A DNA stretch of 64,000 nt from Brevinematales bacterium (GTDB taxonomy: Bacteria > Spirochaetota > Brevinematia > Brevinematales > Thermospiraceae), in assembly GCA_026417555.1 (NCBI GenBank), contig JAOADA010000001.1, positions 585,245 to 649,244 on the forward strand. Direction: 5' to 3'. Numbering within the stretch: the first letter of the stretch is position 1; every line of letters begins with the position of its first letter. Shown one piece after another: positions 3,551 to 11,573 of the stretch. The notes below the pieces were generated by a model that saw only the letters and a list, made by a program, of their open reading frames with translations, was not told the origin of the DNA and did no database searches. Position numbers and translations under genes: made by a program.

Positions 3551-3599
3551 TTTTTGTGCAAAAGACACAGGCATTTTCACTGAGAGAGAGCAGACCCTC

Positions 3600-3627
3600 T
3601 TGACAAATAAAAATTTCTCCTTAAAAT
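3600..3627 (+). promoter_or_regulatory. Candidate promoter of the hisBHA-ispG operon
   Basis: TTGACA (3600-3605, a perfect -35) and TAAAAT (3622-3627) are separated by 16 bp, 29 bases before the hisB start. No leader peptide rich in His codons and no attenuator hairpin fit in the short leader. Confidence 0.65.
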
Positions 3628-3656
3628 AAAAAAGGGGAAAAAAGAAGGAGTTCCGT

Positions 3657-9155: not shown

Positions 9156-10724
9156 TTAGAGAAGAATACGAAGTCCCCCAATCACCTGCACGCCTCCCTC
9201 GGGAACACAGGGCCTACGGAAATGATTCTGATTAAAAAGATTTTCAACTGAAAGTTCAAGATAAAAGTCTCTCCCCAGCTGTTGAGAAAGACCAGCGCTC
9301 ACCACCACGGCATCAGGAAGCTCTGTCCCCTGAGCCGTCCGTGTTTTGGGATAGTATTTCCCCCTCAATGTCGTAATCAACCCAATCTCCTGCCATTTCC
9401 ACTCCAAAAGAGCAGACAAGGAAAGCCCCCCTATCTCATACATATCCGGAGAAAAGGGAAGAACATACGAGGCTGTCACTTTCCCTCCTAAGGTTTTGAG
9501 AGGACTCCAGCCAACAGAAACCTCTGCCTCCCCTACGGAAACATTTGTCCTCTCCTCATGAGTAAACATATCGAGATCTGCCCGATATACAGGAAGAGCA
9601 TAGGTTCCATAGAAATGGCACAAAAGACTCCCCTTCACCGAAAAACTCTCCACAGGAATATACTGCACCCCTATTTGAGGTGTCCACCTCTCATACCTTG
9701 TCGCACTGGTAAAGAAATACTGATTCTCTTCAACTATATCCCCTCCCAAAAGCCGTTTTCGTTCCCCATCCATACCAACAGTAAATACAAACACATCTGT
9801 ATATCTATACCTCACCATCACAAGAGGATACCAGAAAAAAGGAACCAAAGAAGAAAAATACACCCGTGCCCCCACATCCAACGAAAGAGAAGTCAGAAGA
9901 TTCAGTCTATCGAGAAATCCAACATCCCCCTCATGAAAAATACTCTCTTGAAAAACATACATATACCTTCCATCGAGACGGAGAAAATTGTCTTTGGCCC
10001 AATTTGCTTCATAAGAAAAAGATGGCGAAAAATGATAAAAAACCTGATTCGTATACCCACTCACAAGGAGCTTGTTGTTTCGTTCCAGATAGTTCCCTTC
10101 CATAGAAAGCGTAAAAAGACTGTACGTATCAGGGATAAATGAAAGCCCTACCCTTGCCGGGAAATACCTCATCTGCTCAGAGAGAACCCTCGCATTCGTA
10201 TAGAGCCCAAGTTCCCTTGCATAATAACCAACCTCCGTCTGGACTTCCCACTTGGGAGACAGCGTAGCAATCACATCTACATTGATATCATCCACTTTGA
10301 GTTCCGTATTGTAGAGTTTTTCATTGGAAAGTGTGAGACTCCCTCGAGAGTTTCTGAGATACGAAACAAGATAATTCAACGCATCCACACGTTTGCCTAT
10401 GGTAATATCCGAAAAAAGATTGTCACTTGTCCCATAAAAGAGACGAAAACTGGACAGAGAAAACGAAGGGGACCGACGCTGGTTGGTCAGTTCTATCTTG
10501 TAGTATTCACTCTTTCGTAGCCTCGAGAGTTCAGCAAGATCCACCCGCCCAAAGTCTATCTCTTGTCCCGAAAGGCTAAGATTGGTCTGGTCCTGAAGAG
10601 GGATAGAGGTATCCCCCTCAAGCACAATCTTCACATCTGGAAGAACAATCGTAGAGGAAACATTCTCTTGCGCCCAGGAAAAAATCCCACAAAAAAACAC
10701 TATCCCCAAAATATATTTTTTCAT
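9156..10724 (-). CDS. Outer-membrane beta-barrel, TonB-dependent-receptor-like
   Basis: 522 residues with a signal peptide (MKKYILGIVFFCGIFSWAQ). From about residue 70 onward there are alternating amphipathic beta strands rich in Tyr and Phe. The last ~45 residues (LELSVENLFNQNHFR and a terminal VIGGLRILL) look like the C-terminal strands of TonB-dependent receptors, where ENLFN is common. It is shorter than a full receptor (about 700), and I see no clear plug domain or TonB box, so it may be a plug-less or reduced barrel. It has a perfect promoter with a palindrome at the start site. It heads the operon with DUF4416 and a thioesterase. Confidence 0.6.
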   Translation of the reverse strand: MKKYILGIVFFCGIFSWAQENVSSTIVLPDVKIVLEGDTSIPLQDQTNLSLSGQEIDFGRVDLAELSRLRKSEYYKIELTNQRRSPSFSLSSFRLFYGTSDNLFSDITIGKRVDALNYLVSYLRNSRGSLTLSNEKLYNTELKVDDINVDVIATLSPKWEVQTEVGYYARELGLYTNARVLSEQMRYFPARVGLSFIPDTYSLFTLSMEGNYLERNNKLLVSGYTNQVFYHFSPSFSYEANWAKDNFLRLDGRYMYVFQESIFHEGDVGFLDRLNLLTSLSLDVGARVYFSSLVPFFWYPLVMVRYRYTDVFVFTVGMDGERKRLLGGDIVEENQYFFTSATRYERWTPQIGVQYIPVESFSVKGSLLCHFYGTYALPVYRADLDMFTHEERTNVSVGEAEVSVGWSPLKTLGGKVTASYVLPFSPDMYEIGGLSLSALLEWKWQEIGLITTLRGKYYPKTRTAQGTELPDAVVVSAGLSQQLGRDFYLELSVENLFNQNHFRRPCVPEGGVQVIGGLRILL

Positions 10725-10753: not shown

Positions 10754-10782
10754 ATTATAACGATAGGAAGAAAAAGTGTCAA
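10754..10782 (-). promoter_or_regulatory. Consensus sigma-70 promoter of the beta-barrel operon
   Basis: On the minus strand, TTGACA (10777-10782) and TATAAT (10754-10759) with a 17-bp spacer match the consensus at all twelve positions. The start codon is 30 bases downstream of the -10. Confidence 0.85.
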
Positions 10783-10875
10783 TCTCTCCCCAAAAAGAGG
10801 GCCTATGCCCCTTTGTGTACCACTTTTGGGGTAGAAAATACACAAAAGGAGAACAAATTTTCCCCTCTCGGGGGA

Positions 10876-10905
10876 TTGTTGAGTCTCCCAAAAATTCCGT
10901 ATAAT
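10876..10905 (+). promoter_or_regulatory. Promoter of the small RNA candidate
   Basis: TTGTTG (10876-10881), an 18-bp spacer and a perfect TATAAT (10900-10905). TGTTGA with 17 bp is the alternative register. The predicted start is near 10912, and no open reading frame with a ribosome site follows before the terminator. Confidence 0.6.
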
Positions 10906-10911
10906 ATTTTT

Positions 10912-11034
10912 GTAAATCAAAAATGATCAAACGACCTCTGAAAGGAGAAAAGGTCACCCACCGCCTTTTCTCCTTGTCTTGAATACATTGCCCCCCAACC
11001 CGGTAGGAAAATCTCTTTCCTGCCGGGTTTTTTG
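10912..11034 (+). ncRNA. Candidate small RNA of ~120 nt with two C-rich unpaired stretches
   Basis: The stretch between a TATAAT promoter and a strong intrinsic terminator is about 120 nt and has the layout of a stand-alone small RNA. It starts A/U-rich. It then forms a perfect 12-bp hairpin, AAGGAGAAAAGG (10942-10953) with CCTTTTCTCCTT (10964-10975), closing a 10-nt loop TCACCCACCG. A linker with a run of six C follows (10991-10996), then the terminator. C-rich single strands often pair with Shine-Dalgarno sequences in trans-acting sRNAs. I do not recognise a known family: it does not resemble SRP RNA, 6S, tmRNA or RNase P. The 5' end is inferred. Confidence 0.55.
10997..11033 (+). terminator. 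Strong intrinsic terminator of the small RNA
   Basis: AACCCGGTAGGAAA (10997-11010) pairs with TTTCCTGCCGGGTT (11016-11029), 14 bp with a single G-T wobble and a 5-nt loop. It runs directly into TTTTTT (11028-11033). Confidence 0.85.
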
Positions 11035-11573
11035 TGAGAAGGGATGACGTTGCTTATGGCTTTCTTGAAAGACCTTTGTCACCGAGAGAGTACCTGTCTT
11101 TTTCTTCCCGGCTTGGAAAGATCTTCTTCTCAGGGACATCCCTATGACGATACGGTGAGAGATCTCGTAAAAAACTCAAAAAAACTCCTCCCCACCTCTA
11201 TGATTGGCCAAACATGTTCTCTTCACATCTTCCCTGAGGAAACACAAAAAAATCTCACCACATACACTTTGTTTGAAGATTCTCTCTCTTTAAAGATCCT
11301 TCTTCATATCGCTTGTATCTTTCTGCTTTTTTGAAGAAAATCTTGCAGAATAAAGAAAAGAGACAGGTGGTCATCAAAAGGAAAGAATCTATAGCTTTTT
11401 GTATCCCTTCGTTGGAGATTCAAAAAGGGCTTTTAAATTACTATTAAAATATAGTATATATGGAATATTATTTTAGTAGAATATTTATAAAAATTTTGAT
11501 TTTTTCTGATTTTCTTGAGTTTTTTCCTTTGCCTTTCCGATAACGTGAGAAAAGAATCAAAAAGGGAGAGGTG
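11035..11573. other. Intergenic stretch with no convincing gene
   Basis: About 540 bases between the terminator and the SpoIIE-type phosphatase gene. An open frame at 11044-11334 (96 codons) has ordinary codon use but no spaced ribosome site, no promoter and no family resemblance. The last 140 bases are very A/T-rich, with loose inverted repeats (TACTAT...ATAGTA at 11449-11466) that may hold the promoter of the next gene. No clear -35/-10 pair is seen. Confidence 0.5.

Follow-up and report, generated by a model that had tools for sequence, protein, structure and literature searches.

We identified a conserved small RNA (sRNA) gene at positions 10876–11034 of a 64,000-nt window (the whole stretch of DNA analyzed), which comes from contig 11 of a 2.0-Mb spirochaete genome (G000), and compared it with two Brevinematales genomes of the same genus, G001 (a single contig of 2.5 Mb) and G002. 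We put the probability that this is a real, conserved sRNA gene at roughly 0.9, its transcription being predicted. The evidence is computational and comprises the anatomy of the gene, its orthologues and their conservation, covariation in the terminator, independence of the downstream gene, and the lack of a detectable Hfq. The element is free-standing rather than a leader and represents a new family, though of a kind already known. For its mode of action, the likeliest reading, at about even odds, is a trans-acting antisense sRNA that is Hfq-independent and specific to the genus, with both mechanism and targets predicted. According to this model, a noncoding RNA of about 120 nt would be made from its own promoter and switched by a regulator acting at upstream dyads. 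Its invariant single-stranded segments would pair in trans with messages near the ribosome site, the 5′ tail ACGACCUCUGA first and perhaps also the ACAUUGCCCC linker or an opened right arm CCUUUUCUCCUU, and this pairing would block translation of those messages without Hfq.

Anatomy of the sRNA gene

The sequence-only reading of this region had described a TATAAT promoter, a perfect 12-bp hairpin, a C-run linker, and a 14-bp terminator hairpin running into six T, and all of these could be read directly from the DNA (Table 1). The unit is intergenic and, on its sequence signals, has its own promoter and intrinsic terminator (ends not mapped). The spacer between TTGTTG and TATAAT is 18 bp; the former was not listed by a promoter consensus scan because it matches TTGACA at only 3 of 6 positions. 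The arms of the main hairpin (10942–10953 and 10964–10975) enclose the loop CACCCACC, whose length is 7–8 nt between species. The C6 run (10991–10996) reads CCCCUC in one species, and the terminator arms (10997–11010 and 11016–11029) include one G-U pair, with T6 at 11028–11033. In the fold, the 5′ tail, the loop, and the linker are likely unpaired, and the tail could pair transiently with AGGUC at 10951–10955.

Table 1. Features of the sRNA gene and of the DNA upstream of it (window positions)
Feature	Positions	Strand	Basis and remarks
Operator-like dyad 1 (distal), TACCACTTTTGGGGTA	10818–10833		Dyad scan and upstream alignment; TACCACTTTGGTGGTA in G002, TACCACTTTGGTGGTT in G001
Operator-like dyad 2 (proximal), TTCCCCTCTCGGGGGA	10860–10875		Abuts the −35; CCACTGAAGTGG in G001; weak, a lead only
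−35-like hexamer, TTGTTG	10876–10881	+	Sequence and alignment; TTGTCA in G002, TTGTAA in G001
−10 hexamer, TATAAT	10900–10905	+	Sequence and alignment; TATAAT in G002, TAAAAT in G001
Predicted sRNA transcript, about 120 nt	10912–11033	+	Start placed by the −10 and end by the T run of the terminator; z = −7.3 for the fold; G001 and G002 carry orthologues
Single-stranded 5′ tail, invariant, candidate seed	10931–10941	+	Alignment, fold, and duplex test
Main hairpin, 12 perfect pairs and a closing U-G	10942–10975	+	Both arms invariant in three species
Single-stranded linker, GUCUUGAAUACAUUGCCCCCC	10976–10996	+	Part ACAUUGCCCC invariant
Intrinsic terminator, 14 pairs and T6	10997–11033	+	Six compensatory pairs between species

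The RNA from 10907 to 11034 folds at −45.6 kcal/mol, compared with −22.7 ± 3.2 kcal/mol for dinucleotide shuffles (z = −7.3). Besides the main hairpin, the 64-kb window has no perfect inverted repeat whose arms are 12 or longer around a loop of 3–12, and no such repeat appeared in 20 first-order Markov simulations.

Upstream of the promoter, the distal dyad (TACCACTTTGGTGGTA type) lies at an equal distance from it in all three species. Since about 0.8 single dyads as strong as these would be expected in every 130 bp, only the conservation of the distal dyad counts. A search for the dyad motif across the three genomes found no excess over controls and no regulon. The dyads suggest that the sRNA is switched by a regulator, the existence of which is predicted from them.

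Conservation and genomic setting

With a covariance model derived from the three genus sequences, one copy of the element was found in each of the three genomes, at 115–120 bits, and the hairpins are kept, as the sequence-only reading required of close relatives. The 66-nt core (ACGACCUCUGAAAGGAGAAAAGGUC-CCCACC-GCCUUUUCUCCUUGUCUU..ACAUUGCCCC) is 95–97% identical in every pair. For comparison, coding DNA reaches 72–76% identity in purH and 75% in the outer-membrane-like gene (G000 vs G002), and the DNA directly 5′ of the promoter reaches 59–68%. The terminator helix has been redrawn between species, with two-sided changes at six pairs and 97% of cells still paired, and this covariation signal was lost when the pairing was slid by 1–3 columns; with three sequences, these tests of conservation and covariation are small. 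The main stem has the same sequence at all 13 pairs in the three species and thus yields no covariation evidence; as judged from the alignment, this invariance shows a constraint on the sequence as such. Within the core, the loop and the C6 linker are conserved less well than the rest.

A possible 19-codon frame in G000 begins with an ATG near 10923 and has no ribosome site. We rejected this peptide, as G002 and G001 lack the start codon and a 1-nt indel in the loop leaves no reading frame common to the species. The original view that no coding frame fits the region was therefore borne out, and the core identity, the frame-breaking indel, and the terminator covariation mark the element as conserved as RNA, not as protein.

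Outside the genus, the covariance model scored at most 32 bits, both among 13 genomes of the order (the genus included) and among 198 genomes of the phylum searched with stricter filters. Of the weak matches at 23–32 bits, those in L008, L010, L011, L012, and L016 were, on reading their context, coding sequence, G+C-rich repeats, or the end of a porin gene with its terminator; the remainder were judged to be chance matches by their alignments alone, L015 being a near copy of L012. A DNA search with the element matched G001 and G002 and nothing convincing in 38 other genomes. A synteny search upstream of the outer-membrane-like gene, run in the order's other families, revealed different neighbors and no sRNA, and plasmid, phage, and viral collections held no match to the element. 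An origin as a tracrRNA or anti-repeat was rejected, as a second copy of the hairpin arm was absent from the 464 kb searched in G000. Rfam 15 (4,227 families) gave no match in the window at the gathering threshold, and the matches that appeared at E up to 10 were weak and attributable to chance, consistent with the initial failure to recognize a known family. The same library does detect tmRNA, tRNAs, and cobalamin and ZTP riboswitches in the G000 genome; on contig 11, the ZTP riboswitch lies at L054:3051–3128 and the cobalamin riboswitch at L044:3775–3949. As far as our literature search went, no paper on regulatory RNAs of Brevinematales was found.

The genes to the left of the sRNA are, in order, hisB, hisH, hisA, ispG, and an esterase gene, followed by leftward-pointing genes for a thioesterase, a DUF4416 protein, and an outer-membrane-like protein; the names hisB, hisH, hisA, and ispG were assigned by eye from the sequences. 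About 53 bp ahead of the hisB-like gene (3599–3650, + strand) are 90% conserved against G001 and hold a TTGACA-type promoter region and then a ribosome site. The sRNA gene points right, just past the outer-membrane-like gene, with which it forms a divergent pair, and this gene is its upstream neighbor in all three genomes. It encodes a protein of 522 aa (9156–10724, − strand) that has no Pfam or NCBIfam match and was found in 13 of 13 genomes examined in the order, with 19–80% identity across 12 relatives. Ahead of it stands a sigma-70 promoter, TTGACA-17-TATAAT, that matches the consensus at 12 of 12 positions (10754–10782, − strand). In G001, an IS-like element lies between this gene and the sRNA, and the sRNA core and upstream dyads are intact; integrase/transposase frames of IS type occupy L003 1–1400 at that insertion.

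The downstream neighbor varies, being purH in G001 and G002 and, in G000, a 7TMR-DISM/SpoIIE phosphatase gene separated from the sRNA by 540 bp. In G000, purH lies about 350 kb from the sRNA with its own promoter there. A TATAAT of its own precedes purH in all three genomes, placed in G001 and G002 between the sRNA terminator and the purH start. The constant upstream neighbor, the changing downstream neighbors, and the separate purH promoter indicate that the sRNA is a unit independent of the downstream gene. This agrees with the early description of a complete-looking sRNA gene with predicted promoter and terminator, and it answers the objection raised at the time that the RNA could be the leader of a downstream gene, since the core is 95–97% identical whichever gene follows. 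Right behind the terminator in G000 lies an orphan frame of 96 aa (11044–11334, + strand) with no family match, not seen 3′ of the sRNA in the relatives; it is possibly debris of the rearrangement that parted purH from the sRNA.

Pairing segments, candidate targets, and alternative explanations

No match to Hfq (PF17209) was found in the three genus genomes, and 5 of 14 control genomes were positive. To assess pairing, duplex energies at translation starts were compared with those in coding interiors for 279 G000 genes, with 20 permutations per segment; the sample consisted of stretches amounting to 464 kb of G000 (~23%) and 400 kb of G001 (~16%). Starts were called by a simple ORF caller that itself favors SD motifs, a bias that also bears on the ribosome sites recorded here (AAGGAG, AGGAGG, or AGGAGA). 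The 5′ tail was the only single-stranded segment to favor translation starts, weakly (a difference of −0.45 kcal/mol vs +0.17 ± 0.24 for permuted tails), and the right arm also favored them (−2.16 vs −1.48 ± 0.33 when permuted), yet it is sequestered in the stem. These results, and those for the loop and linker below, are indications only, because of that caller bias and the 20 permutations per segment. The loop CACCCACC and the C6 linker, unpaired in the fold, had been thought to suit pairing with SD regions; in that form the idea found no support, as neither did better at translation starts than in coding interiors and both belong to the less conserved parts of the core. The complementarity of the right arm to AAGGAGAAAA-type ribosome sites was borne out, but this arm lies within a 13-pair stem.

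Exact complements (9- and 10-mers) of the tail (AGAGGTCGT) and the linker (GGGGCAATGT) were sought in the three whole genomes, and no common orthologue occurred among the matches examined, which for the tail covered part of those in G001 and G002. The one suggestive site lies in an OmpA-like gene of G001, which carries GGGGCAATGTATG at its start, with a duplex of −22 kcal/mol; we rejected it as a target since the site is not retained in its orthologues. Neither the seed searches nor the duplex energies thus yielded a conserved target.

Full invariance of both arms of the 13-pair stem goes beyond what simple antisense action needs, and a bound protein may account for it. The RNA could accordingly be a decoy, a sponge, or a ribosome-directed RNA whose hairpin, with an SD-like arm AAAGGAGAAAA and an anti-SD arm CUCCUU, is bound by a protein or the ribosome, mRNA pairing being secondary or absent. 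That all 13 pairs are unchanged while coding DNA differs by about 25%, and that no orthologous mRNA target was found, speak for such a role. We nevertheless regard it as doubtful, because invariance extends to the single-stranded 5′ tail and to ACAUUGCCCC, no 6S or SRP match appeared in Rfam, and a CsrA sponge needs several exposed GGA, whereas both GGA of the G000 RNA are paired. A switch built from the same arms seems improbable: the hairpin would pair an SD mimic on the left with an anti-SD mimic on the right, and the tail GACCU would hold the left arm and free the right one, dampening translation generally on many messages or at the ribosome. The GACCU...AGGUC pairing of tail and left arm is worth about −5 kcal/mol.

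Purine genes often have leaders, purH lies directly 3′ of the element in G001 and G002, and an intrinsic terminator closes the unit, so we weighed the possibility of a leader whose terminator governs read-through, either ancestrally for purH or for the SpoIIE-domain gene. A purH leader or riboswitch acting in cis is ruled out in G000 by the distance to purH, and the cis-leader explanation as a whole is largely refuted by this genome, where an unrelated gene follows 540 bp away and the core has hardly changed. Its low probability also reflects the TATAAT of purH in G001, G002, and at the separate G000 site, the lack of any terminator-breaking alternative fold among those seen, and the lack of an Rfam riboswitch match in an analysis that recovers ZTP and cobalamin riboswitches elsewhere in G000. 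Retention of the divergent pair in all three species would fit an sRNA that regulates only the outer-membrane-like gene, through common promoter DNA or through the RNA. This is quite improbable, given that inspection by eye revealed no long complementary stretch in the start region of that gene and that the two are parted in G001 by the IS-like element with core and dyads intact. Least of all do we expect that the region yields no functional RNA and is a conserved DNA element or a hairpin arisen by chance, because promoter, hairpin, and terminator are jointly kept in three species, the terminator covaries, and the simulations did not produce such a hairpin by chance.

Comparison with known systems

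The trans-acting sRNA proposed here would form a well-bounded, testable spirochaete family, unusual for its fully invariant stem, in genomes where Hfq was not detected. Its covariance model is usable for annotation, and the finding overturns nothing established. Like the CsrB/RsmZ sponges, it is a small stem-loop RNA containing GGA, but it has only two GGA, both paired, whereas CsrB has many exposed GGA. It resembles the ZTP (pfl) riboswitch in preceding purH in two species and in ending in a terminator; it differs in giving no match to that model even at E = 10, in that purH has its own promoter, and in being kept without purH. RoxS/RsaE, FsrA, and CsfG of the Bacillales are similar in size to the sRNA. 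They belong to another phylum and gave no covariance-model match, but share its layout, C-rich single-stranded regions, and intrinsic terminator (B. subtilis set, PMC8216469).

IsrR of Staphylococcus is likewise a standalone, intergenic, Hfq-independent sRNA at the level of a genus, with its own promoter, stem-loops, single-stranded C-rich regions, and an intrinsic terminator (PMC9410917). The two have no sequence relation (no Rfam match), and IsrR has three hairpins where the present RNA has one main hairpin, whose accompanying C-rich segments show no preference for translation starts. In IsrR, the functional stems show little covariation and the terminator is poorly conserved (PMC9410917), and it is common to both RNAs that the stems are conserved in sequence while the terminator is poorly conserved.
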